DNA of 64,000 nucleotides from Roseovarius litorisediminis. Lineage in GTDB: Bacteria > Pseudomonadota > Alphaproteobacteria > Rhodobacterales > Rhodobacteraceae. The notes under the pieces were generated by a model, which worked only from the letters and a program-made list of their open reading frames with translations, made no database searches and was not told the origin of the DNA. This document shows positions 16,795 to 31,482 of the stretch, piece after piece. Location: positions 620,001 through 684,000 of the forward strand of contig NZ_FWFL01000001.1 of NCBI RefSeq assembly GCF_900172295.1. The letters run 5' to 3'. Both the position numbers and the translations under genes were made by a program. How positions within the stretch are numbered: the stretch's first letter is position 1; every line of letters starts with the position of its first letter.

Positions 16795-16875
16795 TGATGG
16801 TGACAGCCACATGGTGCGTCGCCTTCATACCTCCCTGTTGGACTATGGCCGAGCTTAGTGCTCGGCCTTTTTTTT
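16795..16875 (+). ncRNA. Candidate ~80-nt small RNA with CCUCCC motif
   Basis: Bounded by a promoter-like sequence and an excellent intrinsic terminator, with no convincing ORF. The 5' part can form a stem GGUGAC/GUCGCC. Between it and the terminator stem is a single-stranded stretch with CAUACCUCCCUG, whose CCUCCC is complementary to a Shine-Dalgarno sequence. Alphaproteobacterial stress sRNAs of the cuckoo/CcsR type use exposed CCUCC motifs, but this one has a single copy and the family match is not established. It could also be only the 3' UTR of the LysR gene. Confidence 0.45.
16847..16875 (+). terminator. Intrinsic terminator
   Basis: GGCCGAGC (16847-16854), loop TTAGT, GCTCGGCC (16860-16867), then eight T. 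A textbook rho-independent terminator for the LysR gene and/or the candidate sRNA. Confidence 0.92.
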
Positions 16876-22666: not shown

Positions 22667-23617
22667 CTATTCCCATTCCATCTGTTCAAACACCCGGCCA
22701 GCGTTTTTCTTGGCCAACTCCTCAAACGTATCAAGGTGGGTATAGGGCGTCTGATCGACATAATAGGCATCGGTCAGTTCGCCGCCCGCGTCGATATGGT
22801 CGCGGATCTTGCCACGCAGATAGATCAAATAGTCACGGGTATAGCGGCGCACCTGCGCCATGTTGGTGGGATGGCCGTGGCCGGGAATGACATAGGTGGC
22901 GCCCAGGGCCTCGAATTCATTCTCCCATGTCTCAAGCCAGTCGGCGGTGATCGTGTCGGCAAAGATCGGCAGCATGCGTTCGTGAAACGCCATATCGCCC
23001 GAGATCACCAGGCTTTGCTCGGGCAGCCAGACAACGATATCGCCAGGGCTGTGGGCGGGGCCAAGGTGGCGCGCCTCGATGCGGAAATCACCCATTTCAA
23101 CAATATATTCGTCGCTGAAGGTTTCGGTCGGGACCTGCACGGTGGTGCCCTCGGCCTTGTCGCGATTGTAGCCCTTCATCGCCTGAAGGTTGGGGCCGCC
23201 GTTCTCCTCAACTTCGTGGGCGGCATCGACATGCGCGACAATCGGCACGCCCTGTTCAGCCCAGTAGGAATTCCCAAGCGTGGCGTGGCCCTGCCCGTTT
23301 TCGTTGAACACCAGTTTTACCGGCTGGTCGGTGATGCGCTTGATCTCGTCATGCAGGGCCTTTGCCAGGGCATAGGCGGCGCTGCCGTTGATCACGACAA
23401 CCCCGTCGCCGGTGACGATAAAGCTCAGGTTGTTGTTATGGCCCGAGTTTTCATAAGTGGGCGGCGCGGTGGCCCCGATCGCGGACCAGACGCCGGGGAT
23501 CACCTCGACCGGTTCGTCGTAAAGCAGCGAGCCGGGATATTTATCGGCAATGTTTTCACTGGAGATGGCGGTGCTGGCGGTGAATAGCACCAGGGCGGTA
23601 AGCGTATAGCGGAACAT
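22667..23617 (-). CDS. Exported metallo-beta-lactamase-fold protein with degenerate HxHxDH motif
   Basis: A 316-aa protein with a Sec signal peptide (MFRYTLTALVLFTASTAIS). The MBL fold is recognisable from the later metal-ligand blocks: LGPAHSPGDIVVWLP (His), VISGDMAFH (bridging Asp) and VIPGHGHPT (His). The first motif, normally HxHxDH, reads NENGQGHATLGN, keeping only the last His. Nearby text matches quinoprotein-associated/SoxH-like zinc hydrolases otherwise. It begins two bases after the upstream MBL gene ends, with AGGT as the ribosome site, so the two are coupled. The catalytic state is unknown. Confidence 0.85.
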   Translation of the reverse strand: MFRYTLTALVLFTASTAISSENIADKYPGSLLYDEPVEVIPGVWSAIGATAPPTYENSGHNNNLSFIVTGDGVVVINGSAAYALAKALHDEIKRITDQPVKLVFNENGQGHATLGNSYWAEQGVPIVAHVDAAHEVEENGGPNLQAMKGYNRDKAEGTTVQVPTETFSDEYIVEMGDFRIEARHLGPAHSPGDIVVWLPEQSLVISGDMAFHERMLPIFADTITADWLETWENEFEALGATYVIPGHGHPTNMAQVRRYTRDYLIYLRGKIRDHIDAGGELTDAYYVDQTPYTHLDTFEELAKKNAGRVFEQMEWE

Positions 23618-23619
23618 GG

Positions 23620-24534
23620 TTAAACCTCGCTGATAAAACGAAAGACACCGTCCTTGCGCGTGACACGGCCAAGACCGCCATGCGGCAGGTGGAATCCGAC
23701 CATCGGAATCTGATCTGTGGCCAGTTGGTCCAGCAGGCGTTGCCGGGTTGCCGCCCCCAATTCCGTATCCTGATCCGATCCGCTGGCCCAGTCGGGGCGT
23801 TCAAACGCCACATGGGCGTTGGCAATGGCATCGCCCACCACCATCACCGCGTCATTGCCATTGCGCACCTCGAATGACGTGTGACCTGGGGTGTGGCCAT
23901 ATGTGGCGTGGGACATGATTCCGGGCAACACCTCTTGTCCGGCAGTAAAGAATTCACAGGCGTCTTCGATAGCTTCCAGACGACGGGCGGCCCCCACGGC
24001 AAAAGCTGCGCGCGCCTCGCCGATGGTGTTTACGGTGTCTGGATCGCGCCAGTAGTCCCATTCAACCTGGTTGATCAGATAACTGGCGTTGGTAAAAACA
24101 GGATCGTCGAAATCATCCAGCACCCCCCAGAGATGATCGGGATGGGCATGGGTAAAGACCACATGAGTAATATCGTCAGGCGCCACATCAAGCGCATCAA
24201 GCGTATCAACCAGATCCCCCGCACTTGGCATGAAACCCGAACCTGAACCGGCATCGAACAGAATGGTACGGTCAGCGTCCTGTAACAGGGTAACGTTGCA
24301 AGGCGGGTGCACTTCGTCGCGAGAGACACCGTGGCGCATCAGGATGTCAGCCAGTTCTTCCTCGGGCAAACCGCCGAACATGAAATCGCCCGGCAACACC
24401 AGATTGCCATCGCTTACAGTGGTGATGCGGATGCCACCCAGATCAAACCTGTCGGCGGCAAAGGTCCGGGCTGCGATGCTGCCAAAAACGGTGGCGCCCA
24501 GCATGGTCAGAACCTGTCGTCTGTCGGGGGTCAT
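23620..24534 (-). CDS. Tat-exported MBL-fold metallo-hydrolase
   Basis: A 304-aa MBL-fold hydrolase with an N-terminal twin-arginine signal (DRRQVLTMLGATVFGS). A complete metal site is present: THAHPDHLWG (HxHxDH), GHTPGHTSFEV, VVGDAIANAH and GFHLPHGGLG. Resembles the class with lactonase or aryl-hydrolase members; substrate unknown. The ATG at 24534 with AGGT six to seven bases upstream is preferred over an upstream TTG. It is the first gene of a two-gene operon with the degenerate MBL protein and is divergent from a cupin gene. A relative with the same export type lies at 33164. Confidence 0.9.
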   Translation of the reverse strand: MTPDRRQVLTMLGATVFGSIAARTFAADRFDLGGIRITTVSDGNLVLPGDFMFGGLPEEELADILMRHGVSRDEVHPPCNVTLLQDADRTILFDAGSGSGFMPSAGDLVDTLDALDVAPDDITHVVFTHAHPDHLWGVLDDFDDPVFTNASYLINQVEWDYWRDPDTVNTIGEARAAFAVGAARRLEAIEDACEFFTAGQEVLPGIMSHATYGHTPGHTSFEVRNGNDAVMVVGDAIANAHVAFERPDWASGSDQDTELGAATRQRLLDQLATDQIPMVGFHLPHGGLGRVTRKDGVFRFISEV

Positions 24535-24851
24535 TGGCAAACCTCATATAAATTCCATTAAGTGAATATGATGCTGAAATAACACGTAAACACAAGGACT
24601 ATTTGTGACAGAGGTGACGGTGGCCTGCCTGAATTCACCGTTTTCTCAATTGAAAGGCGCCGGGCGCGGGGTGCCGCCTGACGATATCCGGGCCGGTCGG
24701 TCGTCCAGAGCCTGCAAATCTATATGACACGAGGCCGCACAGCTTTCTGTCTAACAGCCTGCAGGGAACAGGAACAGCGTTTGCACGCTGCCTGCCCTGT
24801 CGCATAGAGTGGGGCGTCTGATGACGGACGGGACTGGCAAAAGGATTTCCA
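24535..24851. other. Intergenic region between divergent MBL and cupin genes
   Basis: About 317 bp with no convincing ORF. The part next to the MBL gene (24540-24610) is AT-rich and likely holds its promoter; the rest is GC-rich with no clear dyad. Nothing further is recognised. Confidence 0.6.
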
Positions 24852-25376: not shown

Positions 25377-25769
25377 TTATCCGGCATAGCTCAGCACCAG
25401 ATCCCGCAGCGACACGAAACCCAGAAGCCCGGTATCGCCATGTACCAGTGCCCGCCGCCTGCCAAGCTGTGTCAGCAACCGCACGGCGTATTTTACGTTC
25501 ATGTCCGGAACAATGGTCAGGACCGGCTTTTCCATGACCTGATAGACAGAGGTGCGTTCGAATGATCGGTTTTCTGCGATCACCCTCGAGGCAATCTCGT
25601 TGACCGTCAGAAAACCGTATTCGTCTCCGGGATGCCGCCGGTCGATGATCAGCGAGCTGACCTTGTTTTCGCGCATCATTGCTAGTGCCTCATGGATGTT
25701 GGCAAAGCCGTCGATCCGGTGCAGATCGGTGCGCATGAGCGTATCAACCCTGACGAATGTCTCTTCCAT
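25377..25769 (-). CDS. Two-CBS-domain protein
   Basis: A 130-aa protein made of a tandem pair of CBS domains (about residues 8-60 and 70-128), for example IHEALAMMRENKVSSLIIDRR and VKYAVRLLTQLGRRRALVHGD. CBS pairs bind adenine nucleotides and report energy state to attached or partner proteins. The ATG at 25769 shares bases with the stop of the PII-like gene (TGATG) and has GGAGG upstream, so it is coupled to it. It is the last gene of the DUF1538 operon. The role is inferred to be regulatory input to the transporter. Confidence 0.9.
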   Translation of the reverse strand: MEETFVRVDTLMRTDLHRIDGFANIHEALAMMRENKVSSLIIDRRHPGDEYGFLTVNEIASRVIAENRSFERTSVYQVMEKPVLTIVPDMNVKYAVRLLTQLGRRRALVHGDTGLLGFVSLRDLVLSYAG

Positions 25770-26122
25770 CACAGATCCTCCTTGCTGATATCCTGCATGA
25801 TGCTCTGCATCTGACCTTTCATGCCGATAGCGTCCTCGATGTCGATCTGAAAGGTAACCCCCGCACCTGGCGTTTCCTCGAATCCGCAGGCCGCGGCAAT
25901 TGCTTCCAGAATGTCTCGGCTGATGTGTTCTTCGACCAGAAACAGCACCACATCGCGTTGCCCGGCCAAATTCAGACCAAGAAATGTCTTTTGCGGCGTC
26001 AGCCCCTCGCCACGGGCACCTGTGATCACGGTGCACCCCGTGGCCCCCTCTGAGCGGGCGGCTTCGATGGCCTTGTCGGTCAGTTCGTCCTGGGTCATCA
26101 CGATGAGCAGTTTGAATTTCAT
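25769..26122 (-). CDS. PII-like signalling protein
   Basis: A 117-aa protein with the ferredoxin-like PII fold: strand FKLLIVMTQDELTDKAIEAARSEGA, then the turn GATGCTVITGARGEG, and a hydrophobic core VVLFLVEEH. The T-loop region (about residues 35-56) lacks the RGAEY uridylylation segment of GlnB/GlnK, and the C-terminus is QIDIEDAIGMKG. It is therefore a PII-like protein rather than a nitrogen PII. Start and stop overlap both neighbours, with GGAGG as ribosome site. It presumably binds the DUF1538 membrane proteins; the ligand is unknown. Confidence 0.85.
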   Translation of the reverse strand: MKFKLLIVMTQDELTDKAIEAARSEGATGCTVITGARGEGLTPQKTFLGLNLAGQRDVVLFLVEEHISRDILEAIAAACGFEETPGAGVTFQIDIEDAIGMKGQMQSIMQDISKEDL

Positions 26123-26928
26123 CACGGGCCTCCTTCGGGAGTGGAAGTGGTGGGAATTGGTTTCTGTCGCCGTTTCTCTAGCCAGGTGCCGATTTGGGCA
26201 TAGCCCATAACCGTAATCATTGGAAACAGGCTCGCAAGCGCGATCAGACCGAACCCGTCAAGCAGCGCCGAACGGCCCGGCACGTTCGACGCCAGCCCCA
26301 ACCCAAGCGCCGCCACCAGCGGTACGGTTACGGTTGATGTCGTCACCCCGCCTGAATCGTAAGCCAGAGGCACAATCATACGCGGAGCAAACATGGTTTG
26401 AACCACAACAATGGCGTAACCGACGATCATATACACATAAAGCGGCGTGCCGCTGACGATGCGGAACGTGCCCACCGACAGGCTTAACGCGACACCGACG
26501 GCGACCGCGACACGCAGGCCGAAAGCCCCGACCGAGCCGCCCGAAACATCTTGCGCCTTTATCGCCACTGCAATCAACGAAGGCTCGGCGATGGTGGTGG
26601 CAAAGCCGATGGCAAAGGCAAAAAGGTAGGTCCAGTAGTAATCCGCCCACCCCGGCACGACACCCGGACCACCGCCGATAAAGGCAGGGTCAGTCAGTTG
26701 TCTTGCCATTTCGCGGCCCAGCGGGAACAGCGCTCGTTCCAGGCCGAACAGGAAAAACGTCAACCCCACCACCACATAAAACAAACCGAACAGCACCTTG
26801 CGAAGATGTGGCAGCTTACGGCGGAGTATGCCCAGTTGAAAACCCAGCAGCACCACCACGATGGGGGCGACATCCTTCAGAATGCTGATGAAAACCTGGC
26901 TCAGTTCTGTGACCATCGACCAGATCAT
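26122..26928 (-). CDS. DUF1538 membrane protein, second subunit
   Basis: A 268-aa polytopic membrane protein of the DUF1538 family. The conserved blocks are [31 protein letters not shown] and [18 protein letters not shown], matching those of the preceding gene, so the two are paralogues. From memory, a pair of DUF1538 proteins in Halomonas (UmpA/UmpB) was reported as a two-component Na+(K+)/H+ antiporter. The ATG overlaps the stop of the upstream subunit by four bases (ATGA). A basic, proline-rich C-terminal tail ([16 protein letters not shown]) faces the PII-like gene in the operon order. Confidence 0.9.
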
Positions 26929-27665
26929 GCCGCCACCACCAATCCGAACAGCAACACGAAAATGATCGGCATCAGGCTGGCAAACGCAATCAGACCAAAG
27001 CCGTCAATCATCGGGTTGCGCCCCTTGATCGCGTGCGCCAGCCCGACCCCCAATGAGGTGACAAGCGGCACGGTGATGGTCGAGGTCGTCACCCCGCCTG
27101 AATCATAAGCGATGCCGATAATCGCGCGCGGGGCGATAGGCGTGAGCGCCACAACCACAATATAGCCGCCAATGATCAGCCAGTGAATCGGCCAGCCCTT
27201 GAGAATACGAAACACACCGATAACCAGCGAAGCCCCGACCGAGGCCGCCACCGTATAGCGCAGCGCATTGGCATGGGCTTTCTGGCTGGCCGGATCACTC
27301 TCGATCACCCCCGCTGCGGCCATGACACGTGTGGCCTCTTCGCCCACGGCGATCAGCGCCGGTTCGGCCACGGTCGTGCCAAACCCCAACCAGAACGAAA
27401 AAATCAGCAGCAGCGGCAGTGATCCGCGCGCGGCCAGTGCATTGGCCAGGGTTTCACCCAATGGAAACAACGCCATTTCCAGCCCGCGGATGAACAGCGT
27501 CAGCCCTAGCAGGACAAAGGCAAAGCCAATCGCAAGATCAGAGATGTTTTCGAAGGGCTGACGCAGCACCACCATCTGGAAGAACGCCACGATGATCAAA
27601 ATTGGAGCAATATCCCGGGCGGTTCCGCTAAACTGTTTGTATAGCGCACGAATTGTGCCCGTCAT
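26925..27665 (-). CDS. DUF1538 membrane protein, first subunit
   Basis: A 246-aa polytopic membrane protein, first gene of the operon, with a good ribosome site (GGGAAAG). DUF1538 blocks are [30 protein letters not shown] and [18 protein letters not shown]. The repeated EP in the membrane (AEPALIAV) and the DSGG loop are the acidic or polar sites most likely used for ion movement. It probably forms a heteromer with the second subunit. Function as a cation/proton antiporter is inferred from family reports, not from this sequence. Confidence 0.9.
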
Positions 27666-30423: not shown

Positions 30424-31482
30424 ATGAAATCCAAAAGCCCAGAAGACATCGCAGTCATTGGCGTCGATATCGGCAAGGACACCTTTCACCTCGTTGGGTT
30501 TGATCACGCGGGTGAGCGCATTTTACGCAAGAAGATTAAGCGGTTGGCGTTGAAGCCGACGTTCGAGAAATTTGCACGCTGCGTAGTTGGCATGGAAGCA
30601 TGCATGAGCGCGCACTTTGTCAGTCGAATGCTGCGAAGGCTCGGTTTTGAGCCTCGGATCATCCCGGCGATCTACGTAAAGCCTTTCAACAAGGGACAAA
30701 AGAACGATTACAACGATGCGGAGGCAATCGCAGAGGCAGCGATGAGGCCAAACCTGCGTACGGTCACCGAGAAGAGCCAGGACCAGTTGGACCTACAGGC
30801 ATTGCATCGCGTGCGTTCCAGGCTGGTGGCCCGCCGCACCGCGACGATCAATCAGATCCGGGCGTTCCTGATTGAGCAAGGCATCACCGTGCGGTCGGGA
30901 CGGCATGCACTGCAGAGCTCGTTTGAGGCGATCCTCGAAAACCGGCGCGATGAAATCTCATCACGCATGCGCGCGATCCTGATGGGTCTCTATGGCGATT
31001 GGCTTTGGGTCGATGAGCGGATCAAGGCAATCTCGTCGAAGATCGAGGAGATCAGCCGATCGGAGGAGAACAGCGTCAACATCATGACCATTCCTGGGAT
31101 CGGCCCGCTTATCTCGACGGCCATCGTTGCCGCCATTGGCAAGGGCGAGGTGTTTGATCGAGGTCGGGACTTTGCAGCTTGGGTGGGCCTGGTGCCGCGC
31201 CAGTTCAATACCGGCGGGAAGACTATCCTTGGTCGGATCAGCAAACGCGGCAACAGCTATCTGAGGATGCTGCTGGTGCAGGCCGCCAATGTCATTCTGA
31301 TGCGCCCACATCGTTGGGACAGCTTGGGATTAGGCCCATGGCTTCGGGGCGTTGTAGCACGCATGCCGCACAATAAGGCTGCGGTCGCCTTGGCCAACAA
31401 ACTCGCCCGCACCGCCTGGAGCGTTCTGCGCTACGGATCGAAGTACGAGGTTGAGAGAGACGAGGCTTTGGCCGCGATCTAG
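30424..31482 (+). CDS. IS110 family transposase, IS1111 group
   Basis: A 352-aa transposase. The N-terminal RuvC-like DEDD catalytic domain shows GVDIGKDTFHL (first Asp), VVGMEACMSAHF (Glu) and KNDYNDAEAIAEAA (last Asps). The C-terminal transposase-20 domain shows MTIPGIGPLISTAIVAAIG and ISKRGNSYLRMLLVQAA with its catalytic Ser region (RGNS). These residues appear intact, so the enzyme is probably active. The start follows AGGAGAAGCAGTC. These enzymes act with an element-encoded bridge/seeker RNA that directs recombination. Confidence 0.95.
   Translation: MKSKSPEDIAVIGVDIGKDTFHLVGFDHAGERILRKKIKRLALKPTFEKFARCVVGMEACMSAHFVSRMLRRLGFEPRIIPAIYVKPFNKGQKNDYNDAEAIAEAAMRPNLRTVTEKSQDQLDLQALHRVRSRLVARRTATINQIRAFLIEQGITVRSGRHALQSSFEAILENRRDEISSRMRAILMGLYGDWLWVDERIKAISSKIEEISRSEENSVNIMTIPGIGPLISTAIVAAIGKGEVFDRGRDFAAWVGLVPRQFNTGGKTILGRISKRGNSYLRMLLVQAANVILMRPHRWDSLGLGPWLRGVVARMPHNKAAVALANKLARTAWSVLRYGSKYEVERDEALAAI

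Follow-up and report, generated by a model that had tools for sequence, protein, structure and literature searches.

Ammonium and bicarbonate transporters are the classic targets of gating by PII proteins, and in the AmtB-GlnK system a PII trimer controls the membrane transporter via its T-loop. CBS domains can also control an ion pathway, as in the CBS-gated Mg2+ channel MgtE. In the described SbtA-SbtB complex, an SbtB trimer sits on the SbtA trimer with its T-loop in the cleft (PMC8352866). Within the DUF1538 family, UmpAB of Halomonas zhaodongensis is described as a heterodimer whose Na+(Li+,K+)/H+ antiport in E. coli vesicles depends on pH, and it works in E. coli from a clone without any umpAB-linked PII or CBS gene (PMC5484666). 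Such regulators are therefore dispensable for transport, which suits a role in control rather than in catalysis. UmpAB is also reported among several transporters in saltwater cable bacteria, and as a marker for them (PMC10030654, PMC12093952). The Halomonas report (PMC5484666) has no mention of PII, CBS, topology or antiparallel. It is the sole functional DUF1538 study that we found in the open-licence literature, and it covers the transporter alone. A text search of most of the open-licence papers that name DUF1538 gave neither a PII protein nor CBS, and no paper that we found in that literature describes DUF1538 with a PII or CBS partner. PII control of transporters as such is already known.

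The DNA analysed here (the window, a stretch of 64,000 nt) carries a four-gene operon which we read, with a probability of roughly 60%, as encoding a PII-gated two-subunit cation/proton exchanger. The genes run on the minus strand from 27665 to 25377 in the order umpA-like (26925..27665, 246 aa), umpB-like (26122..26928, 268 aa), PII-like (25769..26122, 117 aa counted from its ATG) and CBS-pair gene (25377..25769, 130 aa). The preliminary description had reported four open reading frames joined by 4-base or TGATG overlaps, and both coordinates and overlaps were confirmed in the sequence: umpA and umpB share four bases (26925..26928), umpB and the PII-like gene overlap in a TGATG preceded by GGAGG (26120..26124), and the PII-like and CBS genes overlap in another TGATG (25767..25771), all on the minus strand. 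A GTG at 26125 is a possible alternative start of the PII-like gene. We favour the ATG at 26122 because 115 of 117 aligned relatives have Met1 (their starts were picked by a script that searched for Met), and it is with this start that both overlaps of the PII-like gene are TGATG.

Tight packing of these genes is common among relatives, although the counts are approximate, the gene starts having been chosen by script. Spacing of at most 20 nt, overlaps included, was seen between umpA and umpB in 103 of 113 loci, between umpB and PII in 83/110 and between PII and CBS in 93/101, with a 4-base overlap in 69 of the latter. A promoter scan gave two hits against 1.4 expected, none of them upstream of umpA; a terminator scan gave seven against 3.9 expected, none taken as evidence; and an Rfam scan of the window had no match at the operon. 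Elsewhere in the window we noted a SorX small RNA match (16804-16873, plus strand; 47.5 bits, gathering score 46.6), two adjoining genes of the metallo-beta-lactamase fold (22667-24540, minus strand) and an IS110-family transposase (30424-31482, plus strand) about 2.8 kb upstream of the operon. Rhodobacterales (Aliiroseovarius and others) are among the best named relatives of UmpB. One other genome of the same family (G337) in the phylum sample has DUF1538 and at least 20 of the same-family genomes listed have none, so that the operon is patchy within the family.

The assignment of the transporter to the DUF1538/UmpAB pair, made in the preliminary description, held up in family searches. DUF1538 (PF07556; cut-off 22.6 bits) is matched over the full domain in both UmpA (2.8e-67, 226.6 bits) and UmpB (2.3e-64, 217 bits). 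Against the NCBIfam UmpA and UmpB models (the NF041627/NF041628 pair) the two proteins match over the full length, each scoring higher against its own model than against its partner's, at 347.2 bits for UmpA and 328.2 bits for UmpB; these scores fall short of the equivalog cut-offs (490 and 500), and the NF041628 cut-off was missed by all 32 relatives tested. Another transport family (Ion_trans and the like) was considered for DUF1538 and rejected, the only hit being a weak Na_Pi_cotrans match at 0.034, below the cut-off.

The AlphaFold2 model of UmpB (mean pLDDT 94.3) has seven helices, of which helices 3 and 6 are broken near E115 and D191, two residues that are invariant across the joint UmpA and UmpB alignment. 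UmpB was modelled on its own after we dropped an alignment (A3) that was to give the complex via the fusion protein of locus L083, in which the UmpB rows fell on the UmpA half, at about 50% identity to the fusion. Profiles of UmpB and UmpA found no match among PDB sequences up to E 10, and the UmpB model had no Foldseek match at E<=0.001 and a best Z of 5.5 with VIA. A likeness to the MgtE fold (VIA Z 4.6-5.4) was not used, unrelated rows scoring equally high. The absence of a convincing match among solved folds does not make the UmpB fold new.

Counts of Lys and Arg in the loops, made after short or truncated proteins had been removed, place UmpB N-out/C-in in 113 of 113 sequences, with a K/R-rich C-terminal tail inside. 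The UmpA signal is weaker: 99 of 110 sequences are N-in/C-out, nine tie and two are opposite (110 rows including the window, left from 113 locus rows once those of 200 aa or less were removed). By the positive-inside rule the two proteins would be oppositely oriented, implying that UmpA and UmpB form an antiparallel pair of homologous 7-helix proteins, a 7+7-helix exchanger. Natural UmpA-UmpB fusions occur in some genomes (seven open frames in a first count, more in the 140-locus survey described below), and their short linker, non-membrane by eye, fits the opposite topology.

Alternatively, PII may gate a transporter whose native substrate is not Na+ or K+ against H+ but, for example, another ion or a cation-coupled small solute; antiport in E. 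coli would then be a side activity. Known PII partners indeed carry other substrates, namely ammonium and bicarbonate, the NCBIfam cut-offs for antiporter subunits are not reached, and the antiport is known from the rescue screen of one laboratory, which has attributed similar activities to several unrelated families (PMC5996927, PMC6055358, PMC7221264). We nevertheless hold this to be rather unlikely, given the reported direct vesicle assays (PMC5484666), the reports that UmpAB marks saltwater cable bacteria (PMC10030654, PMC12093952), the conservation of the acidic membrane residues, and the K+ channel with a TrkA_N domain that lies directly upstream of umpA in one relative (L171:1267-2961).

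The third gene encodes a protein with a PII fold. Pfam P-II (PF00543) matches it at 1.9e-7 and 31.8 bits (cut-off 25), a PII profile finds GlnB/GlnK structures (best 4.9e-5), and its AlphaFold2 model (pLDDT 84.1, low in the T-loop) shows the PII fold with an extra C-terminal helix. With Foldseek this model matches 223 PDB chains at E<=0.001; TTHA0516 (2cz4, E 6.9e-6), archaeal GlnK and CPII are the best matches.

Nitrogen PII proteins (GlnB/GlnK) carry a RGAEY T-loop with a modifiable Tyr. The genome encodes two further P-II proteins that have RGAEY; the PII-like protein lacks it and so is a third, distinct PII. Its T-loop (R37-Q55) is altered and, in the alignment, about five residues shorter than theirs, which bears out the earlier statement that it is not a nitrogen PII. 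This different loop is nonetheless conserved: the mean top-residue frequency is 0.73 in the T-loop, 0.70-0.79 in the strands and 0.45 in the C-terminal helix, and residues G26, G29, G38, F47, G49, G100 and Q104 are identical in all 117 relatives. Conservation of the T-loop on a par with the core strands is what a partner-binding loop would be expected to show. Onto the same alignment we mapped Lys90, Arg101 and Arg103, which we take to be the phosphate-binding residues of nitrogen PII. The positions that align with the GDGK lysine (89/90) and with the first C-terminal arginine are never Lys or Arg among the 117 relatives: Lys90 aligns with Ile, Val or Ala and Arg101 with Gly (position 100, always Gly), and position 102 is mixed, being Lys in the window. 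Adenylate binding, which the preliminary description had expected of this protein, is therefore not supported so far.

We then asked how faithfully the genes stay together across 140 loci, made up of the best 80 named matches (and hence biased to close relatives), 40 own-phylum loci hand-picked from the strong matches among those listed, and 20 loci from two other phyla, those of Lunatibacter (Bacteroidota) and of a Desulfocapsaceae genome (Thermodesulfobacteriota). Two genomes of the Bacteroidota-phylum sample (G718, G794) were left out since their DUF1538 matches fell below the cut-off, and G498 was left out of the second of these two samples as the genome of L086, counted already. Within 900 nt after DUF1538 there is a PII domain in 79/80 named, 38/40 own-phylum and 20/20 other-phylum loci. 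It thus lies directly after DUF1538 in 137/140 loci, L240 being at a contig end. At one of the three exceptions (L069) the contig stops 666 nt past umpB; at the second (L133) the genome, G226, holds another umpAB with PII; and at the third (L152) a PII-CBS pair is present on a different contig of the genome, and a relative shows the same. Where PII is detached from DUF1538 (G221, G189), a PII-CBS pair is retained elsewhere in the genome. Distances among UmpB and among PII proteins correlate over 91 loci (rho 0.61, against a maximum of 0.18 in 200 permutations).

Whole genomes gave the same picture. A class sample comprised 115 genomes, with a single genome from each family as far as listed; DUF1538 occurs in 11 of them and a relative of the PII-like protein in 12. 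All 11 DUF1538 genomes have the PII relative alongside, two of them at or across contig breaks; the remaining genome, G009, has a PII relative (E 2.9e-4) and no DUF1538. Among 398 own-phylum genomes DUF1538 was found in 126, this PII type (E<=1e-9) in 125 and both in 120, that is, in 120 of the 131 genomes having either (Fisher p ~4e-87, a value that ignores relatedness of genomes). Of the six genomes with DUF1538 only (G374, G320, G338, G382, G275 and G347), G374 has two P-II matches directly beside a DUF1538 fragment, and the matches in G320, G338 and G382 are partial or lie at a contig edge. In G347 no PII or CBS was seen in the 1.2 kb from umpAB to the contig end, and this 84%-complete genome has only two strong P-II matches, both nitrogen-type. 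The PII type without DUF1538 was seen in five genomes, including the 99%-complete G132. The neighbourhood survey, set beforehand as a test of the association, thus came out in its favour: the PII-like gene stays with UmpAB across phyla, which supports treating it and the transporter as one unit.

These counts also speak to the possibility that the target of the PII-like and CBS proteins lies elsewhere and that they only share a transcript with umpAB. Extra PII-type copies do exist apart from DUF1538, and one near-complete genome has PII without it. We regard this as highly improbable in view of the adjacency over three phyla, the joint loss of DUF1538 and PII at the genome level, and the lack of any other recurring neighbour. 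In an all-against-all comparison of flanking ORFs, the DUF1538 cluster spans 137 loci, that of PII 136 and that of CBS 105; another three (in 92, 52 and 24 loci) were judged by their coordinates to be antisense shadows, and no cluster beyond these occurred in more than 10 of the 140 loci. The extra copies away from DUF1538 are a trait of some lineages: loci L160-L174 (families f135, f146, f157 and f171) come with a further PII-type gene, often near genes that by eye resemble argB, glutamate-cysteine ligase and flavoprotein genes. Near one extra copy, a few genes away, is a TrkA_N ion channel (L165:7016-8575), and in L013 a distant PII relative adjoins a membrane protein that resembles SbtA by eye.

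The CBS gene behaves differently from the PII-like gene. Its product matches Pfam CBS at 1.8e-14 in two stretches, corresponding to two CBS repeats. The nucleotide-site motif of CBS domains is S/T-x-x-D; in 100 aligned rows the second repeat has S/T in 81 and D in 64, and the first repeat mostly has Leu (53/100) at the S/T place. CBS lies downstream of DUF1538 in 78/80 named, 24/40 own-phylum and 4/20 other-phylum loci. With 106/140 overall and few cases in the two other phyla, the earlier picture needs correcting on this point: the CBS gene is accessory to the module and does not belong to its core.

Outside the window's own phylum a second PII domain often takes the place of CBS: 14 of the 20 loci have two or three PII domains after DUF1538 and no CBS. 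By a custom HMM, two PII domains lie in one ORF in L224, L227, L228, L232, L233, L234 and L239, and candidate three-domain ORFs of 369-381 aa (L231:6501-7643, L241:2824-3933 and L242:2888-4033) adjoin a fused DUF1538 protein. The three-domain reading comes from this HMM, by which the first domain of L242 is weak (0.012, partial), since Pfam at E<=0.01 reports a single P-II stretch in L231 (a 380-aa chain), as it does in L224. If this reading is right, the three chains would be single-chain versions of the PII trimer. One locus (L136) has two modules in series: a fused umpAB, PII, CBS and a second PII, followed by a second umpA and umpB.

Such variation bears on whether the PII-like and CBS proteins might be constitutive structural or assembly subunits instead of signal-dependent switches. 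The near-constant presence of PII (137/140) and the loss of the presumed nucleotide-binding residues would both suit constitutive subunits. We find this improbable, because UmpAB is reported active with neither protein (PMC5484666), and because CBS is often missing or exchanged for a PII domain, which better fits a variable input module.

An exchanger that lies beside a PII-type sensor in several phyla is probably switched by it, and UmpAB would then be turned on and off by the PII-type sensor as follows. The antiparallel 7+7 exchanger would consist of UmpA and UmpB, each half placing acidic residues where its helices 3 and 6 are broken. Docked on its cytoplasmic face would be three PII-like subunits, replaced in some relatives by a single chain of three domains, so that the R37-Q55 T-loop might reach the cytoplasmic exit and throttle transport. 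Binding of a ligand in the PII-like cleft and at the second CBS site would set the state. We expect the control to be inhibitory, with an energy- or ion-related metabolite either lifting or imposing it, and matching threefold symmetry would predict a trimer of UmpAB dimers. We put at about even odds the broader proposal of a widespread, self-contained class of PII-controlled exchangers, built from antiparallel 7-helix paralogues of an unrecognised membrane fold and a PII ring with a ligand other than that of nitrogen PII, where the ring has evolved from one gene (with CBS) through two-domain to single-chain three-domain forms. If PII does gate a cation/proton exchanger, PII signalling would extend to pH and salt homeostasis. 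The module is small and testable in E. coli, and it would open both the PII ligand and the antiparallel-pair topology of a transporter family to direct tests.

Compared with the known systems, the window pair resembles Halomonas UmpAB in its paired homologous DUF1538 proteins with seven predicted membrane segments each and in its overlapping genes (PMC5484666), and differs in scoring below the equivalog cut-offs. The membrane domain of MgtE aligns with UmpB at Z 5.4 over 113 residues, within the noise level of the tool. CPII (5d4p and others) and TTHA0516 (2cz4) are the nearest folds to the PII-like protein (PII fold, Foldseek E ~1e-5), although they share only about 20% identity with it, and CPII, by its PDB title, binds ADP/AMP and bicarbonate. 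Unlike AmtB-GlnK, the window protein does not conserve the canonical RGAEY T-loop or ATP/2-oxoglutarate sensing. With SbtA-SbtB it shares a PII-like gene beside an inverted-repeat transporter and, probably, docking by the T-loop (PMC8352866); the transporter family differs, the inverted repeats of the window are by prediction separate proteins, and the C-terminal CGPxGC redox loop found in some SbtB is absent. Docking and gating by the PII-like protein would follow the same logic as in SbtA-SbtB and AmtB-GlnK, applied to an unrelated transporter.
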